Source: Hyella patelloides LEGE 07179
GTDB taxonomy: Bacteria > Cyanobacteriota > Cyanobacteriia > Cyanobacteriales > Xenococcaceae
DNA: 64,000 nt
Assembly: GCF_900659865.1 (NCBI RefSeq)
Contig: NZ_LR213772.1
Location: 1-64,000, forward strand
Direction of reading: 5' to 3'
Part shown: positions 8,355 through 51,400 of the stretch, one piece after another
How the letters are laid out: every line of letters begins with the position of its first letter
Position numbering within the stretch: the stretch's first letter is position 1
Position numbers and translations under genes: made by a program
The notes under the pieces: generated by a model
What the model was told of the DNA's origin: nothing
The model's database searches: none
What the model saw: only the letters and a program-made list of their open reading frames with translations

Positions 8355-8693
8355 TTAATCATCTTGTTTAAATCTAACTCCTCTAGCTGACCAAAACTCA
8401 AGATGTTTGCGGTTCGCTTTTTCTATTTTGGCTTTTCTCAAATTATCGTTTAAAATATCTGCAATTTGCTGACGCATATAATTTTGGCAATTTTCTTTTG
8501 TACTTTGAGTAGGCTGTAAATAATAAATTACATTAGCTCCTAAACTTTTCCACCATAGATTGTGTTGAGAAGATAAATTTAATCCATAAAGGACATAGTT
8601 AGCAAAATGTTCGCAATTATGGAGTGCAATACTGTATTTTGCAGCAGTCATGAATTTTTCAATTCTCTCTTTTTCTTGTAGAGTGATTTTCAC
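8355..8693 (-). CDS. LRAT-like (NlpC/P60-superfamily) protein, apparently N-terminally truncated
   Basis: The NCEHFANYVLYG segment is the catalytic-cysteine motif typical of lecithin:retinol acyltransferase-like proteins. The listed start is a GTG and yields 112 residues, but the same frame stays open upstream to a stop at 8818-8820 and encodes family-like sequence (DHYFLSEVNDFSNSVGWGVKG) without an ATG, GTG or TTG to start it. The likely explanation is loss of the 5' part, including the region that carries the catalytic histidine. It could also be a short diverged member using an unusual start. Function is unknown and it is probably not an active acyltransferase. Confidence 0.6.
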   Translation of the reverse strand: MKITLQEKERIEKFMTAAKYSIALHNCEHFANYVLYGLNLSSQHNLWWKSLGANVIYYLQPTQSTKENCQNYMRQQIADILNDNLRKAKIEKANRKHLEFWSARGVRFKQDD

Positions 8694-8923
8694 TGATCCT
8701 CTTACTTGTAATCCCTTAACTCCCCATCCGACAGAATTACTAAAATCATTGACTTCACTAAGAAAATAATGATCTGCTAATCTTGCGACAATTGGTATTT
8801 TACAAACTTACAATACACTTGATTCAACTATTCTAAAGCTCACATTCATAACTCACATAACTTAATAACTTATCTTATGTAAGAATTTCAATAATTGTCG
8901 AGTGGGCATTGCTCAGCCTACTA

Positions 8924-10153
8924 CTAATTAAACAACAGAATAAACGTTTGTAAAATACCTACTGTAAAACCTAAAACACCACCTAAATTAACGATCGCTT
9001 GTAGTTCATTTTTCACAATACCTTGAACTGCTAATTCTAAATCTTCAGGAGTGGTTGCCATTACTCGATCTATAATTACTCGATCGATAGATAAAATAGG
9101 AATAACTTGGGTTACTAATTGTTCTAAATCTCTCTCTAAATAGCGGTCTAAAATCAAAGCTAATTCTTGAGAAACTACATTCAAAGAACTATTAACCACT
9201 GTGGAAGAACGAAATTTCTTAAGTGCGATCGCTGATAAGTTTTCCCAATCAACGGATTCTCCAACACCATGAATAAAGTCTGCTCCACGGTTTTGTAAAT
9301 AATTTCTAACTGCGTCTCTAGTAGTTTTTCTTAATTGTCTGACAGTTGCTACTGGTAAGTTTTGCAGGGAAAGACTTAATAACCAGTTCCGAATTCGATT
9401 ACGAATTTCTAAAGAAAAAGTCAATTCTTTGAGTCGAGCATTTGCGATCGCTGGTTCTTCCAAACAAAAAGAACGTAAACGTAATAAACTATTTCTAACA
9501 CCAAATAGATTAGCGACTACCCAATATGTACCGCTAGTTTTTTCCCGAAAACCTTCATCAATAATTTGAATATTTCGCTCAGTCAAAAAGTCAATCATCA
9601 AACGACGTAACATATCAGGAGGAATTACTACCTCTAAGATCCAATCAGAAAATTGTTTGGCTTGGGCTTCTGTGAGTTGAAAATCTAGGAGTATTTGATC
9701 GAATACTTGATTAATTTGAGCTTCTAAAAAATCTTCTTTACGAGCTAACAAACGTAACATTCTCGGTAAGGATTGCCCAAATAAATCTCTCAGAATATTA
9801 GCAACTAACTTAGCTGTTTTCTGTTCTTTATCTGATTGAATCTGCTCTAACGCCAGTTGTAATAACCACTGAATTGCACCCTGTACTCTATCTAATTGTA
9901 GTAATCTTTGTGCTAACTTTTGTAATTCTGTAGGAGTCAATAAAGACCCCATAATCGTATCAGAAACTTTTTGTGCTAATCGTTTTTGATTACTAGGAAT
10001 TAACCCAGGAGTAAAGGGTAACTTTCTTTTACCAATATAAATAGCTCTATAAGGGCGAAAGAGCATTTTTATGGCTAAATCGTTAGTAAAGTAGCCAATA
10101 ATTCCTCCAGCGATGGGGGGAATTACAAATATCCAGAGATTAGTGAGTTCCAA
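8924..10153 (-). CDS. DUF445 family membrane protein
   Basis: 409 residues with one hydrophobic helix at each end ([25 protein letters not shown] at the start and [18 protein letters not shown] at the end) and a long amphipathic helical middle. The N-terminal [15 protein letters not shown] and [17 protein letters not shown] motifs are hallmarks of DUF445 (YheB-like) proteins. The family is widespread in bacteria and has no settled biochemical role. It is monocistronic on the minus strand with an ATG start. Confidence in the family is high; the function is unknown. Confidence 0.85.
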
Positions 10154-10349
10154 AGCGATAATAAAGTTGTCTGTAATTAGTTCTTACTTCTAATTGTTAG
10201 TGATTAATGCCTTAATTAGTTATATTGTACGTCTAATGTGAATTGAAATTACTTTTGATATAGCCTAAATCGTCGTAAAAGAAAGCTTTTCTGCCCTGCA
10301 AGAATAGCGAGAATAATACCTATAGACTAAAATGGGTGAATTGATCTTT

Positions 10350-10381
10350 AGCTTATAGCTTACAGCTTACAGCTTATAGCT
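10350..10381. repeat. AGCTTATAGC-type short palindromic repeat, copy 3
   Basis: The run alternates AGCTTATAGCT and TACAGCT units and is perfectly self-similar to the copies at 3427-3457 and 45274-45305. It lies in the 337-bp gap between the DUF445 gene and menG. The rest of that gap (10382-10470) holds a GC-richer stretch with short inverted pieces around GTCTCACC, and I find no gene there. Confidence 0.6.
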
Positions 10382-10490
10382 ACGAACTAATAAGTCTCAA
10401 GCGAAGGGTCTTGGTGAGCATTCCCTTGCGTCTGTCGCCGACGCGGGGTCTCACCGCTAATTCACATCAGGCGTATTGTATGACTCATCT

Positions 10491-11204
10491 TTATTTTTTT
10501 AGCACTAATACTCCCATCATGCCACCAACCAGAGGATAATGAACTGCTTTAGTAAATCCCGCATTATCAGCTAATTTTACTTGTTCTTTTCCTGTGGGAA
10601 ATTTTGCCAAGCTGGGAATTAAATAAGCATATTCTTCTGTCATGTTAAGACTTTGCGCTGTAGGAATGACAATATTATTGAGATACCATTGCTGAAAAGT
10701 ATCCATAAAAGCAGAGTCGGGACGATGAAAGTCCAAAATAGCAATATATGCTCCAGGCTTAAGTACTCGATAAATCTCTCGTAAACATAGAGGAATATCG
10801 GTTACATTACGCAAACCATAGCCCATAGTAGCACAGTGAAAATAGTTATCAGCAAAAGGTAAATTGAGCGCATCTCCTTCCAACCATTGCAAAGGAAAAT
10901 TTACAAACTTCTTTTGTTGTCTTTCTGCTGCGATTTGTAGCTGTTGACAAGCAAAGTCTAAACCAATTACTTTACCTTGCTTACCTACTTTTTTCGCCAA
11001 CATAAAGGCTAAATCACCACTACCGCAACAAATATCTAAGGCAGTGTCTCCAGGGCGAGGATGAATCCATTTTACTGCCATCATCTTCCAAATACGATGT
11101 TGACCAAAGCTCAAGCGATCGTTAAGATTGTCGTATTCTGTAGCGATGCGATCGAATATGGCTTTAATTTCGGTAGCTTCAGGATTGAGGTTTTGCTTCA
11201 TCAC
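10491..11204 (-). CDS. menG: MenG/UbiE-type demethylphylloquinone methyltransferase
   Basis: 237 residues with the class I SAM-methyltransferase fold. The SAM-binding motif is LDICCGSGDLAFMLA (about 57-71). FDRIATEYDNLNDRLSFGQHRIWK at the N-terminus and GYGLRNVTD and REIYRVLKPGAYIAILDF in the middle are UbiE/MenG signatures. In cyanobacteria this enzyme makes the last methylation in phylloquinone (vitamin K1) synthesis, and phylloquinone is the A1 acceptor of photosystem I. The start ATG precedes a second Met. It is transcribed toward the DUF445 gene and is not obviously in an operon. Confidence 0.9.
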   Translation of the reverse strand: MMKQNLNPEATEIKAIFDRIATEYDNLNDRLSFGQHRIWKMMAVKWIHPRPGDTALDICCGSGDLAFMLAKKVGKQGKVIGLDFACQQLQIAAERQQKKFVNFPLQWLEGDALNLPFADNYFHCATMGYGLRNVTDIPLCLREIYRVLKPGAYIAILDFHRPDSAFMDTFQQWYLNNIVIPTAQSLNMTEEYAYLIPSLAKFPTGKEQVKLADNAGFTKAVHYPLVGGMMGVLVLKK

Positions 11205-18512: not shown

Positions 18513-20045
18513 TTAGAGATTAGAATACAATTCCTTGATTTTGTTAATTACTTCTTCTATTGATAGACGATCGGTAATAATTTCTATAGCATCATCAGCT
18601 TTTTTTAATGGTGCGATCGCTCTATTACTATCTTTATTATCTCGCTCAATAATTTCTTGTTCTAACTGTTTTAAATTAATATCTTTATAGCCTTGATTTT
18701 GTAAATCTGAGAGTCTTCTTTTAGCTCTTTCTTGAGGAGAAGCGGTTAAGAAAATTTTCAACTCAGCATCAGGAAAAACGTTAGTACCAATATCTCTACC
18801 TTCGGCAATAATTCCCCCTTCCACACCATAATTTTGTTGTGCTTGGACTAACTCTTTTCTGACAGCAGCTTGAGCGGAAATTGCCGATACATTAGCCGTA
18901 ACTTCTGGTGTGCGAATTGCTTGGGTAACTTCTTGTTGATTAATATAAACTTCTACAGGAAGATGAGGTGTATTACCAGGAATTAAATCTATTTTGACTC
19001 CTTTAACGATCTTAGCTACTGCTGATTCATCATCTACAACAATCTGAGAATTCATTACCAGCCAAGTTACTGCACGGTACATTGCACCCGTATCTAAATA
19101 AAGTAAACCCAACTCTTTTGCCACGCGACGGGTAACCGTAGACTTTCCTGCTCCTGCTGGGCCATCAATAGCCACAATAGGCTGACGCAATATTATATTA
19201 TCAATTAAACGAGTCTTTCCCAAATGAGCAGCGATCGCCAATAATCCTGTTTTTTCCACTATCGTTAAAGGCTGTAAGGTTGCGGGATCGACTAATTCCA
19301 CATACTGCATCTTAACTTCTGGGATAGTAGCTAACTGGTTTTTCACCGTTTTTATTAAACTAGCAGTTTCCTTGATGCCTTTTCTAAAAGCGATCGCTGC
19401 TTGTTGTAAACTACGATGTAAAATAGTCGCTTGGGTTTTCTCTTCTGGGGTTAAATACTGATTGCGGGAGCTTAAAGCGAGTCCCGATTCTTCCCTAACA
19501 ATCTGACAACCCACAATGTTTACAGGAAGATTGAAGTCAATAACTAAACGACGAATAATAGCTAACTGTTGAGCATCTTTTTGACCAAAATAAGCGCGAT
19601 CGGGCTGTACAATATTTAATAGTTTTGTAACTATGGTGGCTACTCCTATAAAATGTCCAGGGCGATATTTACCGCATAAACCAGAAGTCATCGACTCAGG
19701 AGGAATTACTGTGGTGGTGTTAGTTTGAGTTTCGGTGTCTCCTGTAACGCCAATTTCTTCTACGGAAGGAGCAAAAACAATCTTCACCCCCAATTTTTCA
19801 CATAATTGACAATCAGCTTCTACATTACGGGGATATTGTGCTAAATCTTCATGAGGAGCAAACTGTAGGGGATTTACAAAAATGCTTACTACTACAGCAT
19901 CGCATTCACTAATTGCTCTTTTAATTAAACTAATATGACCTTGATGTAATGCTCCCATAGTAGGCACTAAACCTACTTGTTTTTCCTTTAATTTAATATT
20001 ATTAAGGGCTGTTCGTAGTTCAAGGAGATTATAAATAATAAGCAT
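18513..20045 (-). CDS. panC/cmk: Bifunctional pantoate--beta-alanine ligase / cytidylate kinase
   Basis: 510 residues. The N-terminal about 280 are PanC: VPTMGALHQGHISLIKRA (HIGH-type ATP site), VFVNPLQF-like VSIFVNPLQFAPHEDL, FGQKDAQQL and LALSSRNQYLTPEE. From about 288 the chain becomes Cmk: VAIDGPAGAGKSTVTRRVA (P-loop), YLDTGAMYRAVTW and EGRDIGTNVFP. PanC joins pantoate and beta-alanine to make pantothenate for CoA, and Cmk phosphorylates CMP and dCMP. This fusion is characteristic of cyanobacteria. The ATG start gives MLIIYNLLELRTAL. Confidence 0.96.
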   Translation of the reverse strand: MLIIYNLLELRTALNNIKLKEKQVGLVPTMGALHQGHISLIKRAISECDAVVVSIFVNPLQFAPHEDLAQYPRNVEADCQLCEKLGVKIVFAPSVEEIGVTGDTETQTNTTTVIPPESMTSGLCGKYRPGHFIGVATIVTKLLNIVQPDRAYFGQKDAQQLAIIRRLVIDFNLPVNIVGCQIVREESGLALSSRNQYLTPEEKTQATILHRSLQQAAIAFRKGIKETASLIKTVKNQLATIPEVKMQYVELVDPATLQPLTIVEKTGLLAIAAHLGKTRLIDNIILRQPIVAIDGPAGAGKSTVTRRVAKELGLLYLDTGAMYRAVTWLVMNSQIVVDDESAVAKIVKGVKIDLIPGNTPHLPVEVYINQQEVTQAIRTPEVTANVSAISAQAAVRKELVQAQQNYGVEGGIIAEGRDIGTNVFPDAELKIFLTASPQERAKRRLSDLQNQGYKDINLKQLEQEIIERDNKDSNRAIAPLKKADDAIEIITDRLSIEEVINKIKELYSNL

Positions 20046-20512: not shown

Positions 20513-22708
20513 TTAAGCAAAATCTAAAACCCAACGTCTAAATAATTCCACAATGATGCGATAGTTTCCCTCTTGTTCTGTTTCTGTAATTACATCATGA
20601 CGAATTAGAACTGAGATCGCAGTTTCTAAAGTTTTTCTCTCTAAACCAGTTACAGATTCTAGATGATCTAAACTCAACCCTTCGGAATTAGGAGCTAAAG
20701 CTCTAATAATATCTCTTTGTCCTGGTGCATCTTGGGCTGCTTGTCCCCAAACTCCTTCAAAATAATAACGTCCTTGCTGGAAGAAGTTTTGATTGATTAC
20801 TGCTTCGACATCTTCTACAGTAAAGGTGTTACTGTGGGAAATGTTTTGTTCAAATACTCGATCGTTGTAGTTGCGGACTAACTGAAAACCAATTAACTGC
20901 ACTAGATAGGGTTGTCCTGAAGTTAGGAAATAGATTAAGTCTAGTGCTTCTCCTGTATAGTCGAGAAGGAATTCTTGATTTTCTGGATTTCGATCCCCCC
21001 TAGCTCCCCTTATTAAGGAGGGGGTGTCGGAGGTTGTTGATAAGGAGGGAATATCAGGAATGGGATTGGCGAGAATAGTTTTAGTTGCACCTTTGTTGAG
21101 GAAGCTTACATGAATATTAATCACACTAGCAAAGAAGGGTTGAAAGTAATCTGCTGTCATTTCTTCTAGGGTATGTAAACCAGCGAAAGCAAAGGCGATT
21201 TTTTCGGGATTCATTTGCACTAAACCCCTTAAGGAACTCATAAAAGATGGTTCAATTTGTCCCCGTTGGATTAATTCTTCGATAGTTTCAAATTCATCTA
21301 GGGCAATAACTAAACCTTTATAAGACATATTTGCAATGACTTGTTTCAGGTAACGTTCAAAAGTGCGTTGAGGGAGTTTCAAAAATGTATCATCATCAGG
21401 AGCAAGAATATTAAAAGCTGTGGCAATTTCATCACTAATTGCCATCAACACTTCTGCCACACCCTGAGAAACTGCGCCTAAACGCTGCAAATTAATATAA
21501 ATAACTTTGACTCCTGCGCCAGTGCAATTAGCCATATTCACCAGGATAGATGTTTTTCCCATCCTACGATGTCCATACAAAACCACAGATTGTAATTGAT
21601 TACCAGTAATCCATAATGCTTCTAGTTGACGCAGGATATCTTCTCTACCCACAAATAAACCACCTGTAACGGGATTCCCAATAACATAGGGATTACGCAC
21701 TGGTTGAGTGATGGTAACATTACCAATCTCCTTACCAATTCTCTCTAAAGATTGTTTCCAAGTTTCCGCAATATCAACAATTAAAGCTCTTTCTGCTTCG
21801 AGAATAGTATCTTGGTTATCAATTACCTCTGTTAGCTCCCCAATAGCGCGACTGTAGGCAAAAGACTTGGTATTACGGGAAACACTGTGCTGAATTAGTT
21901 TAATATCTTCTACTACTCTTCTGAGGCTATTCATGGTTTGCCAAGTGGTGGGGCGTAATAAGTTTTCTGTGGGAAAATTGGGAATGGTGAGATGAGCAAT
22001 ATTATTTGGTGTTTTAGCTTCCTGAAACACAGCTAAAGTTTGTGCCAAAATAAAGACTTCTTCTCCGTAAAGCAAATCACGCACGACGGCAAAAGCTTCT
22101 GTTGCCTTGTCTGGTTTTTTTTCGTGAAGATACCAAAAACCAGCAGCAGTAGAACGAGCAGAAGTGTCTAATCGAATATCTGCAATGAATTTATCTTTGA
22201 CTCTTTGTTTACAATTTTTAGGAATAAAAAAGAACAACGGAAAATTTACCAAAGTTTCCATAAAATTTGATTTTAGTTCGGCTTCGATAGAAGCTGAAGC
22301 GAAACGCAGTAAGTTCCAATCATAAGGATTTTGAGCTAGTTGAGTCACGCGAAAAATAATTTGTTCAGTAGGAATTTTCGCCAATACCTGATTGACAGCA
22401 GACATTACTGGAATAAATTGCAAAGAATATTGCAAAACTTGATTGAGATTATATAAACCAGTTTCCCAATCTTTTATTAGCCAATTCTGAAAACAAATGT
22501 TTAGCTTGGGTAAGGGTAATAATGTTACACGGGGAAATAGTCTGTTTTTATTTTGAATTGAAAGTGAATTTACTGGGGTGCTGATTAACCAATTTTCAGG
22601 ACGAATTGTTGCCACGCCCCCTGCCACGCGAGATGCCACGCCCCCTGCCACGCCCCCTGCCACGCATGCCGCCCGCCTAATGCCACGCCCCCTGCCACGC
22701 CGAACCAA
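20513..22708 (-). CDS. AAA/STAND-type ATPase, C-terminal part of a frameshifted membrane-ATPase gene
   Basis: The upstream limit of this frame is not a true start. Its first about 35 residues are a GGVA repeat that belongs to the gene beginning at 23019; a one-base change at 22658-22668 splits the two. The real content is a helical N-terminal region, then an ORC/STAND-like ATPase: GNPVTGGLFVGREDILRQLE, P-loop LYGHRRMGKTSIL, Walker B GLVIALDEFE, and a C-terminal winged-helix-like segment (RDIIRALAPNSEGLSLDHL, VLIRHDVITETEQEGNYRI, FRRWV). A segment near 20992-21030 (SDTPSLIRGARGDRN) comes from a palindromic repeat. Neighbours encode a trypsin-ATPase and Trypco1, which points to a conflict or cell-quality-control system; this would be its NTPase switch. 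Confidence 0.75.
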   Translation of the reverse strand: MVRRGRGRGIRRAACVAGGVAGGVASRVAGGVATIRPENWLISTPVNSLSIQNKNRLFPRVTLLPLPKLNICFQNWLIKDWETGLYNLNQVLQYSLQFIPVMSAVNQVLAKIPTEQIIFRVTQLAQNPYDWNLLRFASASIEAELKSNFMETLVNFPLFFFIPKNCKQRVKDKFIADIRLDTSARSTAAGFWYLHEKKPDKATEAFAVVRDLLYGEEVFILAQTLAVFQEAKTPNNIAHLTIPNFPTENLLRPTTWQTMNSLRRVVEDIKLIQHSVSRNTKSFAYSRAIGELTEVIDNQDTILEAERALIVDIAETWKQSLERIGKEIGNVTITQPVRNPYVIGNPVTGGLFVGREDILRQLEALWITGNQLQSVVLYGHRRMGKTSILVNMANCTGAGVKVIYINLQRLGAVSQGVAEVLMAISDEIATAFNILAPDDDTFLKLPQRTFERYLKQVIANMSYKGLVIALDEFETIEELIQRGQIEPSFMSSLRGLVQMNPEKIAFAFAGLHTLEEMTADYFQPFFASVINIHVSFLNKGATKTILANPIPDIPSLSTTSDTPSLIRGARGDRNPENQEFLLDYTGEALDLIYFLTSGQPYLVQLIGFQLVRNYNDRVFEQNISHSNTFTVEDVEAVINQNFFQQGRYYFEGVWGQAAQDAPGQRDIIRALAPNSEGLSLDHLESVTGLERKTLETAISVLIRHDVITETEQEGNYRIIVELFRRWVLDFA
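20992..21030. repeat. C-rich palindromic repeat lying inside a coding sequence
   Basis: CCCCCCTAGCTCCCCTTATT followed by AAGGAGGGGG resembles the intergenic palindromes at 31636-31654 and 31751-31781. It keeps the ATPase frame open and adds about 13 residues between ATPase elements. Confidence 0.65.
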
Positions 22709-23019
22709 TCAACCTCAATACCTATCTGTTCTAGGAATTGACATAGTAGAGGTGGGATAATGACGGTTAAGATTACGCCTTGCAATAGTAAATTACGCTG
22801 AACAGAATTTTGACCTAATATTTGCCATCCTTTACGCGCACTCATTTCTGTATCAGGAATATAGCCACCACCAAAAGTATCTAAATACCACCGCAAAGCT
22901 TGGGGAAAATAAAACACCCAATACAGTAAACGTAAATAGTCTAAAGGATTCCTTAGAGATAAAGGACGTTTCAGTTTAGGGGCTAAATCTAATTTGGGTA
23001 CAGAATTATCTTTACTCAT
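22585..23019 (-). CDS. Membrane N-terminal part of the frameshifted ATPase gene
   Basis: This frame encodes the authentic N-terminus: a basic cytoplasmic start (MSKDNSVPKLDLAPKLKRPL), two hydrophobic segments (YLRLLYWVFYFPQALRWYL and NLLLQGVILTVIIPPLLCQF) and then EVDWFGVAGGVALGG, the beginning of a Gly-Val-Ala repeat. After GGVALGG the frame changes to HAWQGAWQGAW because one base is missing from a 12-bp unit, and it stops. Restoring that base would continue the GGVA repeat into the ATPase at 22600. It overlaps the trypsin-ATPase gene by 8 bp (23012-23019), so translation is probably coupled. Confidence 0.7.
   Translation of the reverse strand: MSKDNSVPKLDLAPKLKRPLSLRNPLDYLRLLYWVFYFPQALRWYLDTFGGGYIPDTEMSARKGWQILGQNSVQRNLLLQGVILTVIIPPLLCQFLEQIGIEVDWFGVAGGVALGGRHAWQGAWQGAWHLAWQGAWQQFVLKIG
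22610..22704 (-). repeat. 12-bp tandem repeat encoding Gly-Gly-Val-Ala, with one 11-bp unit
   Basis: On the plus strand the unit is TGCCACGCCCCC. Units lie at 22610, 22622, 22634, 22646, 22658 (only 11 bases), 22669 (divergent), 22681 and 22693. Total 95 bp is eight units minus one base. The minus-strand unit GGGGGCGTGGCA reads Gly-Gly-Val-Ala in the ATPase frame and Gln-Gly-Ala-Trp in the other. Confidence 0.85.
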
Positions 23020-24280
23020 GGCATTTTTGGCGATAAAGCTGATGACACAATCGCATTACTTGTTTAGGATGACCTTTACTATTAGCAATAATTGTAGCTA
23101 TCTCATCTGTAGTGAAGCGAATGGAGTTATTTTGCAAACAGAAATTAATAAAATTATTAGTAGTTATTTCATTCCAATAAGAGATTATTTCTTCAACACA
23201 GATATTTTCAAAAGGAGATACCATACTACTATCAGAAAATAAACGATTCAAAGGCTTATTTACTGCAATCACTAACCGTAAAGAAGCATCCACTCCCTCG
23301 GCTAAGGCGCGAATTTGACTACGGATTTGATTAGTAAATCCTGACCATGTCATTTTTTCTACATTATCTAAAATTAATAATAATTTGTGTTTTTTTAGTT
23401 CGCGGGATAGTCTATAGCCTTTACTTAAAGTAATACCTACAAGATCGCACAAAGCAACATAAAAATCTTCTTCATCACAAATATTACCTAAATCAAGATA
23501 AATAGGTTTACGAAGAGACTTTAATTGACTAACTGCTTGCTGTTCAATAACTCTTAGTACAGAAGATTTACCAATCTCTGCTTCGCCAATTATGGCAACA
23601 CTATTATTATTATTTAAAAGTTCAAATATTTGCTTGACTTCTTTTTCTCTGCCAAAAACTAACTTATAATTATCAATTCTTCCTCCTAAATGATTAAAAG
23701 GGTTATCCAAGATAATTTTTGGTTTTAACTCAAAAAAATGATCAAAAATAAGCGCAGTCGAAACACCTCTACCACCTAGATCGGTGTAAATATCCCGACT
23801 TCTTTTAATTAAGCCACAAATCTTACCTGTTTCTTTGTTTAATAAAGGCGCACCGCTAAATCCTGGCTGTACTTGTTCCCCTCGAAATGTCATTAACGGT
23901 GGCTCGTCTCCAGTCAGATCGGTATAAATAAAATCTCTAGGATCGCCGTTAGGATAATCATCGGTGTAACCAAAAGAATATAATTTATCTCCGTTATTCA
24001 CAGAAGCATCTAGAACAACACAGGGATGTTCGGTAATAGGCTGCTCAAACTTTAGCAAGGCTAAATCTACTTGGGGATTTGTGCGTAACTTATAAATATT
24101 GACGTTATGTTCTACATTCTGCCAATAAACCTTAATGACTGTAATCGGTTTACGCCCATCACCTTCAGTAACAACATGAGCGCAAGTCAAAATTAATCCA
24201 GATGCAACAAAAAAACCAGTTCCAGATTGGCTTCCAGCTTTTATTCTTACTGTATAATCCCTCAACTCTTCTGATTGCAT
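23012..24280 (-). CDS. Trypsin-like serine protease fused to a STAND/AAA-type ATPase
   Basis: 422 residues. Residues 1-165 are a trypsin-fold protease: TGFFVASGLILTCAHVV (His35), VDLALLKFE (Asp72) and QPGFSGAPLLNKETGKICGLI (Ser142) give a complete triad. Residues about 195-420 hold an ATPase: LVFGREKEVKQIFELL, P-loop IGEAEIGKSSV (about 231-241) and Walker B KLLLILDNVEKM. There is no signal peptide, so it works in the cytoplasm. It starts 15 bp after the Trypco1 stop and overlaps the next gene by 8 bp, a tight operon. Trypsin domains paired with Trypco1 and NTPases are known from predicted cyanobacterial and actinobacterial conflict systems in which the ATPase licenses the protease. The trigger and substrate here are unknown. 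Confidence 0.88.
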   Translation of the reverse strand: MQSEELRDYTVRIKAGSQSGTGFFVASGLILTCAHVVTEGDGRKPITVIKVYWQNVEHNVNIYKLRTNPQVDLALLKFEQPITEHPCVVLDASVNNGDKLYSFGYTDDYPNGDPRDFIYTDLTGDEPPLMTFRGEQVQPGFSGAPLLNKETGKICGLIKRSRDIYTDLGGRGVSTALIFDHFFELKPKIILDNPFNHLGGRIDNYKLVFGREKEVKQIFELLNNNNSVAIIGEAEIGKSSVLRVIEQQAVSQLKSLRKPIYLDLGNICDEEDFYVALCDLVGITLSKGYRLSRELKKHKLLLILDNVEKMTWSGFTNQIRSQIRALAEGVDASLRLVIAVNKPLNRLFSDSSMVSPFENICVEEIISYWNEITTNNFINFCLQNNSIRFTTDEIATIIANSKGHPKQVMRLCHQLYRQKCHE

Positions 24281-24295
24281 CTCAGATAACTAAAA

Positions 24296-24592
24296 TTACT
24301 TACCCCACTGGAGAGTAAGCTTCAGATTGGCTTTATTAGAACCATCAACAATTAAAGTAGTTAATTTGCCTGACTTTACCACAATATCAAAGCCAATTTC
24401 CACTGTTGCTTTATCTGGTTTAACCTTATTGATGCTAGTCGCCAGAGCTTGAGTAACAGCTTCGATGGTGTCAGTTACTCCTTGAAAAGAGAGAGTAGAG
24501 ACATCTTGTTCTCCGCCTAAATCTCTAGCTTGAACAAGTACAGTGAGATCGTCACCAACTTTGACAGGAATAGTGCGAGTGCGAGATTCCAT
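24296..24592 (-). CDS. Trypsin-co-occurring domain 1 protein (Trypco1, CU044_2847-like)
   Basis: 98 residues of beta-rich sequence. The pattern VKVGDDLTVLVQARD at the start, a helix (GVTDTIEAVTQALATSINKV), then KATVEIGFDIVVKSGKLTTLIVDGSNKANLKLTLQW matches the Trypco1 domain, where the EFG/EIG strand and the terminal KxTLxW strand are characteristic. In known contexts it is encoded beside trypsin-like proteases, as here, and is thought to be a partner or regulator of the protease. It is first in the operon. The ATG start is followed by MESRTRTIPV. Confidence 0.88.
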   Translation of the reverse strand: MESRTRTIPVKVGDDLTVLVQARDLGGEQDVSTLSFQGVTDTIEAVTQALATSINKVKPDKATVEIGFDIVVKSGKLTTLIVDGSNKANLKLTLQWGK

Positions 24593-48485: not shown

Positions 48486-51400
48486 ATGGTGACATTTGAA
48501 AATGCGGTTAACTTTGCCGTAGGAAGTACTCCAGTTTCAGTAGCCATAGAGGACTTTGATGGGGATGGCAACTCCGACCTTGCTATTGCTAACCTTAGTG
48601 ATGACAATTTATCGGTTTTGTTAGGAGATGGCAGTGGCGGTTTTACGACTCAATCTACCTTCGCCGTGGGAAATACTCCAAATTCAGTAGCCGTAGGGGA
48701 TTTTGATGGAGATGGCAACTTCGACCTCGCTACTGCTAACCGTAGTGATGACAATTTATCGGTGTTGTTGGGAGATGGCAGTGGCGGTTTTGCCGAGCAA
48801 TCTACCTTCGCTGCGGGAAATGCTCCAGGTTCAGTAGCAGTAGGCGACTTTGATGAAGATGGCAACTCCGACCTCGCTACTGGTAATATTTTTGACAAAA
48901 GTGTATCGGTTTTGTTAGGAGATGGTAGTGGCGGTTTTACGACTCCATCTACTTTCGCCGTAGGAAATGAGCCAAATTCAGTAGCCGTAGGGGACTTTGA
49001 TGGGGACGGCAACTCCGACCTTGCTAATGCTAACCGTACTAATGCCAGTGTATCGGTGTTGTTGGGAAATGGCAGTGGCGGTTTTACGACTCAATCTACC
49101 TTTGCTGTGGGAGATTTTCCAAATTCAGTAGCCATAGGGGACTTTGATGGGGATGGCAACTCCGACCTTGCTACTGCTAACGGTGTTGATGACAATTTAT
49201 CGGTTTTGTTAGGAGATGGTAGTGGCGGTTTTACGACTCAATCTACCTTCGCCGTGGGAGATAATCCATATTCAGTAGCCGTAGGAGATTTTGATGGGGA
49301 TGGCAACTCCGACCTTGCTACTGGTAACAGGTATGATGACAATATATCGGTGTTGTTGGGAGATGGCAATGGCGGTTTTGCGACTCAATCTACCTTTGCT
49401 GTGGGAGATCGTCCACGTTCAGTAGCCGTAGGGGATTTTGATGGGGATGGCAAACCCGACCTCGCTATTGCTAACAGTAGAGATGACAATGTATCGGTAT
49501 TGATCAACACTACCAGCACCCCACCTACCATTACCAGTGCTGACACTGCTAGCATCTTAGAAAATCAAACCGCAGTTATCGATATCAACGCTACCGATGA
49601 CTCGGACAGCGAAGGAAGTGGCTTGACCTACAGCCTCACAGGTGGAGAGGATCTAGCACTGTTTAACTTGGATTCCAATACGGGAGAATTAACCTTTGCT
49701 ACCGCTCCTGACTTTGAGAACCCTGAAGATGCCAATGGTGATAACGATTATCTAGCTCAAGTCACCGTTACCGATTCTGAAGGCTTGACTGGTGTTCAAG
49801 AGTTGACAGTCACCGTCACCGATGTTGATGAAACACCAGATAATGACTTGGTGACATTTGAAAATGCGGTTGACTTTGCTGTAGGATCTCGTCCAAGTTC
49901 AGTAGCAGTAGGAGACTTTGATGGGGATGGCAACCTCGACCTCGCTAATGCTAACGATATTGATGACAGTGTATCGGTGTTGTTGGCAGATGGCAGTGGC
50001 AGTTTTGCCGAGCAATCTAATTTCGCTGTAGGAAATAATCCAACTTCAGTAGCAGTAGGAGACTTTGATGGGGATGGCAACTCCGACCTCGCTACTGCTA
50101 ATCCTTTGGATGACAATGTATCGGTGTTGTTGGGAGATGGCAGTGGCAGTTTTGCCGAGCAATCTACCTTCGCTGCGGGAAATGTTCCATTTTCAGTAGC
50201 AGTAGGGGACTTTGATGGGGATGGCAACTCCGACCTTGCTACTACTAACTATTATAATGATAATGTATCGGTGTTGTTGGCAGATGGCAGTGGTGGTTTT
50301 GCTCCTCTATCTACCTTCGATGTGGGAGATCGTCCAAGGTCAGTAGCAGTAGGGGACTTTAATGGGGATGGCAACTCTGACCTCGCTACTTCTAACGTTA
50401 ATGATGACAATGTATCGGTGTTGTTGGGAGATGGCAGTGGCAGTTTTGCCGAGCAATCTACCTTCGCTGTGGGAGATACTCCAAATACAGTAGCAGTAGG
50501 AGACTTTGATGGGGATGGCAACTCCGACCTCGCTACTGCTAACGCTTTTGATGACAATGTATCGGTGTTGTTGGGAGATGGCAATGGCAGTTTTGCGACT
50601 CAATCTACCTTCGCTGTGGGAGATGGTTCACGTTCAGTAACCGTAGGGGACTTTGATGGGGATGGCAACCCCGACCTCGCTACTGCTAACGTTATTGATG
50701 ACAATGTATCGGTATTGTTGGGAGATGGCAGTGGCGGTTTTGCCGAGCAATCTACCTTCGCTGTGGGAGATGCTCCAAATTCAGTCGCAGTAGGAGACTT
50801 TGATGGGGATGGCAACTCCGACCTCGCTACTGCTAACCGATTTGATGACAGTGTATCGGTATTAATCAACAACACTACCAACACGACCAACACCCCACCT
50901 ACCATTACCAGTGCTGACACTGCTAGCATCTTAGAAAATCAAACCGCAGTTATCGATATCAACGCTACCGATGACTCCGACAGCGAAGGAAGTGGCTTGA
51001 CCTACAGCCTCACAGGTGGAGAAGATCTAGCACTGTTTAACTTGGATTCCAATACGGGAGAATTAACCTTTGCTACCGCTCCTGACTTTGAAAACCCTGA
51101 AGATGCCAATGGTGATAACGATTATCTAGCTCAAGTCACCGTTACCGATTCTGAAGGCTTGACTGGTGTTCAAGAGTTGACAGTCACCGTCACCGATGTT
51201 GATGAAACACCAGGTAATGAATTTATTGTCGGCAGCGCACAGGATGATACCCTCATTGGGGGCGAAGGAGACGATACTATTCTGGGCTTAGAAGGCAACG
51301 ATTTCCTCTTTGGTGGTTCGGGCAACGATAGTCTTCTTGGCGGAGAAGGTGACGATCTTCTCGATGGTCGTTTTGGCTTCGATAGTCTCGATGGCGGCTT

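Follow-up and report, generated by a model that had tools for sequence, protein, structure and literature searches.

Pairs of Trypco1 and trypsin genes, and the exchange of trypsin, caspase, TIR and effector-associated domains (EADs) in front of nucleoside triphosphatases (NTPases), have already been described in bacteria (PMC7159879; PMC8195603). The initial annotation of the DNA studied here stated that such pairs belong to predicted NTP-controlled conflict systems, and both papers support this. Here we analyse a three-gene operon with such a pair from the cyanobacterium Hyella patelloides LEGE 07179. The window, by which we mean the whole stretch analysed, comprises 64,000 nucleotides (contig NZ_LR213772.1, positions 1 to 64,000). 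In it, a Trypco1 gene is followed by P1, in which a trypsin-like protease is joined to a short nSTAND1-like NTPase, and by P2, a second NTPase with a membrane part. We found that the conserved core of this arrangement is two paralogous NTPases, and that Trypco1 and trypsin form one interchangeable warhead. A membrane event that switches on proteolysis, as the initial annotation suggested, is plausible. However, proteolysis can be only one output of the module, as a protease is absent from most relatives.

The closest described systems each share part of this architecture. The VMAP (MoxR-vWA) ternary systems have Trypco1 beside a trypsin-like peptidase, control by an NTPase and a swappable peptidase, trypsin or caspase-like (PMC7159879). 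In contrast, the core here consists of two STAND-like NTPases, one of them in the membrane, and searches confined to the operon genes found no match to MoxR, vWA or VMAP models in Pfam, NCBIfam or PADLOC. The bDLD3/EAD-type systems, which have a central NACHT, MNS (Npun2340/2341) or nSTAND1 NTPase, likewise exchange TIR, caspase, trypsin or EAD modules N-terminally before a STAND NTPase (PMC8195603), and P1 is nSTAND1-like. Unlike in those systems, the regular partner here is a second, paralogous, membrane-anchored NTPase. A passage of PMC8195603 cites the MNS-clade ‘Npun2340/2341 family’ (Leipe et al. 2004). The name hints at an adjacent gene pair, and this may perhaps be the P1–P2 family. 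The two-gene EACC1 system (System 4 of PMC7159879) also combines a constant membrane protein, with small or glycine residues in its helix, with a peptidase partner that has variable domains. It differs in that the membrane protein is small, has a single helix and no NTPase, and is mainly actinobacterial, and in that the variable domains lie C-terminal to a constant caspase. Finally, trypsin-like domains are also fused to immune-type proteins in AVAST, Lamassu and Hachiman systems, and the domain of the window resembles those of Avs1b and LmuA. The described fusions, in AVAST and Hachiman among others, work together with a metallo-beta-lactamase (MBL)-type nuclease (PMC12799240). The partners here are instead Trypco1 and the membrane NTPase, and no MBL nuclease gene was seen. 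PADLOC matches in the operon cover single domains only. Literature searches, which did not reach Leipe et al. 2004, found no published description of the P1–P2 pair or of a membrane NTPase with the Gly-Val-Ala (GVA) repeat described below. The module appears to be a variant of the known STAND/effector conflict systems, with a putative role in defence.

The genes of the operon in the window agree in most respects with the initial annotation. Its spacings of 15 bp between Trypco1 and P1 and of −8 bp (an 8-bp overlap) between P1 and P2 are exact. The Trypco1 protein scores above the cut-off of its Pfam family, has the peptidase gene next to it, and is the sole copy of its family found in the host genome. 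The protease half of P1 matches Trypsin_2, and its catalytic triad (H35, D72 and S142, in the motifs TCAHV, DLALL and GFSGAP) is intact and kept in the aligned trypsin-type relatives; it is thus a predicted active trypsin-like protease. The NTPase half exceeds the nSTAND1 cut-off narrowly (PF20703, 28.7 bits vs 27.1), and a relative of P1, L189, matches nSTAND1 with an E of 2e-12. The AlphaFold2 (AF2) model of P1 reaches a pLDDT of 82. According to Foldseek, its protease resembles MarP/Rv3671c and its NTPase resembles the Walker ATPases 2qen and 2fna and ORC/Cdc6. The profile match and the STAND-like fold of the model together suggest an nSTAND1-like STAND NTPase. P1 is followed by P2, as in other two-NTPase modules, and the expected domains are present, but P2 is split by a frameshift in the assembly. 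The initial annotation had read the third gene as a single ATPase with membrane helices and a Gly-Val-Ala repeat. The repeat is present; the single protein is not, as the frameshift separates the open reading frame (ORF) with the helix (residues 77–95) from the ORF with the NTPase. Coordinates are given in the table.

Features of the operon and its surroundings in the window
Feature	Position	Strand	Evidence
Trypco1 protein, 98 amino acids (aa)	24296..24592	(-)	PF19493 E 9.8e-15; NCBIfam CU044_2847 E 2e-16
P1: trypsin-like protease (residues 1-188) and short nSTAND1-like NTPase (about 190-422)	23012..24280	(-)	PF13365 E 4e-17 (Pfam)
P2 N-terminal ORF, 144 aa: conserved cap (VPKLDLAPKLKRPLSLRNPLDYLRLLYWVFYFPQALRWY), a single membrane helix and the opening repeat units, after which the frame is lost	22585..23019	(-)	
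GVA repeat tract, 12-bp unit, 7.8 copies, holds the frameshift	22610..22701	(-)	TRF, three-frame translation
P2 C-terminal ORF, 731 aa: repeat end, helical middle domain, NTPase (GHRRMGKTS, ALDEFE), C-terminal winged-helix-like region	20513..22708	(-)	
panC-cmk fusion gene	18513-20045		
Large tandem array, 147-bp unit, 15.7 copies	48512-50860		

P1 and P2 form a conserved pair. In 96/96 loci that hold both genes, P1 immediately precedes P2 on the same strand, and the gene ends often overlap. All of these loci are cyanobacterial, and the two collections have seven of them in common. An hhalign comparison (probability 96.6%, E 5e-10) shows the two NTPases to be homologous across 224 columns, and each begins at an NP[FY] motif. 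Thus, the pair is a tandem of paralogous NTPases. P2 occurs in 24 of the 292 genomes of the phylum that were sampled (E 1e-30 or better), a patchy distribution. The pair is known from Xenococcaceae, which stand closest to the window, and from Nostoc, Calothrix, Scytonema, Microcoleus, Planktothrix, Okeania, Trichodesmium, Microcystis and Crocosphaera; it is therefore not confined to filamentous species. Dolichospermum also carries it. Mobility of the module was considered and rejected, as plasmid and phage collections gave no P2 matches. The host genome holds no further copy of P2 and only weak partial matches to P1.

The initial annotation could match the configuration to no described type. 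The trio is, however, one form of a common pair, since the P1 of the 96 loci usually carries a module other than trypsin. Overall, the modules of P1 are of trypsin, CHAT, TIR, EAD4, Cro-like, LuxR/sigma-like or uncharacterised helical type; CHAT was recognized by Pfam in L066 and L135 and by similarity in L118, TIR in L189 (Pfam 6.8e-6, just below cut-off) and EAD4 in L102 (Pfam 1.5e-35). When the module label (11 types) is mapped onto a tree built from 112 P2 NTPase domains, at least 27 changes are needed, and the well-supported branches force at least five for the trypsin label alone. The junction can be located by comparing the window with its nearest relatives, L118 and L066. From residue 192, at the NPF motif, onwards the P1 DNA is 74–75% identical, and before it, where trypsin faces CHAT, there is no similarity. 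We considered an exchange of effectors at one chromosomal site and rejected it: the housekeeping neighbours of the window were not found in L118, L066 or L120. These loci are either situated elsewhere on the chromosome or known from stretches too short for a verdict.

Trypco1 travels with the protease. It is present with 11 of 12 trypsin-type P1 genes and with none of the 84 others (Fisher p 1e-13), and the twelfth locus is cut by a contig end. The initial annotation held that its reading would fail if the three genes rarely co-occurred in other genomes, or if the third were conserved without the other two. The full three-gene order does recur, in Microcystis, Crocosphaera, Calothrix, Stenomitos and one Nostocaceae metagenome-assembled genome. 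It is also found in a distant paralogous form, L110–L112, where Trypco1, a trypsin-NTPase and a membrane NTPase with a GVA-like region follow one another and P2 is 25–28% identical. As these distant loci share the order, the trio must be old, though near relatives show that its trypsin part is replaceable. The third gene does mostly occur without the other two, yet it nearly always accompanies the NTPase half of the second gene, which usually bears another N-terminal module.

Two observations concern unusual forms of P1. In four CHAT-type loci (L141:4830-4950, L146:3990-4100, L164:1930-2010 and L173:4085-4165) the caspase-like domain and the NTPase are in different frames. The split falls at the same linker position, in a run of A8 or A9, and the fused L135 has A7; slippage-based expression, an on/off switch and a homopolymer sequencing error are all conceivable causes. 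In L083:3854-5128, a P1-type NTPase has a UPF0175 domain at its end (PF03683 E 3.5e-20), with only a P2 remnant downstream.

Intact P2 of relatives is one protein, mostly of 780–1050 aa, laid out as cap, predicted membrane helices, usually a GVA repeat, helical domain, NTPase and winged-helix-like end. The cap has the consensus VPRLDLAPKLxRPLSLWNPLDYLRLLYWVFFFPQALRWY. The repeat, which was first read as ‘GGVA’ in the window, is a shrunken tract of a family unit G-V-A-[FLSGV] that reaches 36 copies in relatives and has glycine at every fourth residue, a glycine-zipper-like (GxxxG) pattern. At least six GVA units are present in 85 of 124 P2 rows. In some relatives the region is replaced by ordinary membrane segments, and in L103:1353-5441 and L104:4059-7874 WD40 repeats stand in its place. 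Therefore, the membrane or sensor part varies while the cap and the NTPase stay, which suggests that the GVA region is a variable sensor part. The P2 homologues L086:4045-6156 and L090:4009-6108 have no membrane part and start with an XRE-like helix-turn-helix (HTH); beside them, a sister locus (L089) has a normal membrane P2. Oscillatoria sp. PCC 10802 carries two P2 genes within 8 kb (L091:3196-5952 and 8373-10880; the locus is the same as L174), with P1 directly upstream of the second only. Matches of the window P2 to PF13191 and PF01637 (AAA_16 and ATPase_2) stay below cut-off, its 731-aa ORF has no predicted membrane helix, and relatives have C-terminal HTH matches. No relative of P2 with a solved structure was found by sequence. 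The model of an intact P2, that of L118, matches 2qen, ORC, a plant NLR and, more weakly, the Dark apoptosome, all at low TM-scores; these matches are suggestive only.

Based on these results, we lean slightly towards a model in which this operon represents the version of a widespread cyanobacterial two-NTPase module that is armed with trypsin. P2 would act as a membrane sensor and hub. A membrane-linked trigger would cause nucleotide exchange in P2 and its oligomerisation, and P1, which has no membrane helices of its own, would join the P2 oligomer through its homologous NTPase. The N-terminal modules would then be clustered on the oligomer and become active by proximity. In the trypsin version, this may lead to self-activation of the protease or to cleavage of a target, and Trypco1 may be a regulator or the first substrate. 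More tentatively, and with less than even confidence, we suggest that such modules are membrane-resident two-NTPase immune sensors of cyanobacteria. P2, with its glycine-zipper-like membrane part, would detect the perturbation of the membrane by invaders and would template a hetero-oligomer with the paralogous NTPase and its exchangeable warhead (trypsin, caspase-like, TIR or adaptor), as in a sensor/helper NLR pair that is fixed to the membrane.

Several points weigh against the two-NTPase sensor model. The contact between P1 and P2, the oligomerisation, the trigger and an anti-phage effect are all proposals. For the L118 P2, AF2 yields a poor model (pLDDT 66, and below 50 in the repeat), of which only the helical and NTPase parts can be trusted. 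P2 is frame-broken in this very genome, and the broken copies retain long open NTPase frames. The nearby genes of the window look like housekeeping genes, with no obvious defence island. Additionally, HTH-like or uncharacterised small domains make up the majority of P1 modules, and a regulatory role suits these equally well. It is therefore conceivable, although we consider it unlikely, that the module works as a switch in signalling or transcription rather than as a defence system, and that the protease versions cleave a regulator. Cro-like, LuxR/sigma-like and other HTH-like or helical modules do outnumber enzymes, and the HTH matches in Pfam, weak as they are, recur. However, these modules are swapped with trypsin plus Trypco1, CHAT, TIR and EAD4. 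Such swaps characterise conflict systems (PMC7159879; PMC8195603); the patchy distribution also argues against a switch.

A different role for P2 is suggested by its neighbour. In bacterial gasdermin operons, a protease gene lies next to that of a membrane-acting protein. P2 could likewise be the killing effector: the protease would cleave it, and the freed glycine-zipper helices would form a pore. The adjoining protease and membrane protein genes and the likeness of the GVAx repeat to glycine-zipper helices are consistent with this. So is the state of the operons, as 10 of 29 trypsin- or CHAT-armed ones are broken vs 5 of the 67 others (Fisher p 0.002, in a post hoc hand count of rows that are not independent). 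Such an excess would fit a costly effector, although some breaks may be sequencing errors. We nevertheless regard a pore as quite improbable. P2 is equally conserved with versions of P1 that have no protease, its repeat is missing or replaced by membrane helices or WD40 in many relatives, and it keeps a full NTPase. P2 differs from the gasdermin case in being an NTPase with membrane helices, and no gasdermin model of Pfam or NCBIfam matched the operon genes.

The two ORFs of P2 in the window overlap in different frames and meet inside the GVA tract, which, compared with the intact L118, is one base out of register relative to whole 12-bp units. Cap and NTPase share one frame in 95 of 112 non-duplicate P2 loci, and the window copy is the only one of the 112 with a frameshift in the tract. 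Other breaks differ in kind: L172 is interrupted by an assembly gap, the break of L065 is at a poly-A run, and in L064 the cap contains a stop codon. The last case, L064:6739-6981 (-), is a trypsin-type locus on a 5.1-Mb contig in which the stop is in frame and the remaining frame of 950 aa is open. We therefore rejected phase variation of the tract as a general mechanism. As an account of the window copy itself, a phase-variation switch is very improbable. The frameshift does sit in a 12-bp tandem repeat whose length differs widely among relatives, but slippage by whole 12-bp units would preserve the frame. In addition, eight further assemblies end at the tract or close to it, which makes a misassembly likely. 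No classical slippery heptamer for programmed frameshifting was seen in the window tract when it was inspected by eye.

It is also possible, if rather unlikely, that the window copy is a decaying operon with no remaining function. In addition to the frameshift, a sister genome (L108/G176) retains Trypco1 (88% identical) and P2 but only a fragment of the protease gene. In contrast, the protease and Trypco1 of the window are intact, and the NTPase frame of P2 is open over 693 residues, with a dN/dS (ratio of nonsynonymous to synonymous change) to relatives of about 0.16–0.24, similar to that among the relatives. As the NTPase bears no sign of long decay, the break may have arisen recently or may stem from misassembly; the host genome is a draft of 675 contigs. 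Unless it is an assembly error, the system is probably uncoupled in this genome, with the cap and membrane piece separate from the NTPase.

Two further features of the window were recorded. The panC-cmk fusion gene that flanks the operon lies on its other side, upstream of Trypco1, in the Microcystis loci L193 and L195; this may be a coincidence or a common insertion site. The large tandem array lies in a stretch that is locally GC-richer, and its repeat unit looks like that of a VCBS/FG-GAP-type repeat protein.

If the two-NTPase model is correct, the constant part of the system (two paralogous NTPases, one of them in the membrane) is set apart from an exchangeable Trypco1–trypsin warhead, and this changes what should be tested. 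Close relatives that share the same core but carry trypsin, CHAT or no effector offer natural experiments. Among the carriers of the pair are genera that form blooms or are otherwise in culture (Microcystis, Planktothrix, Dolichospermum and Nostoc); Crocosphaera and Trichodesmium carry it as well. If the model is true, bacteria would have in this module an equivalent of paired sensor/executor NLRs, with the sensor embedded in the membrane.

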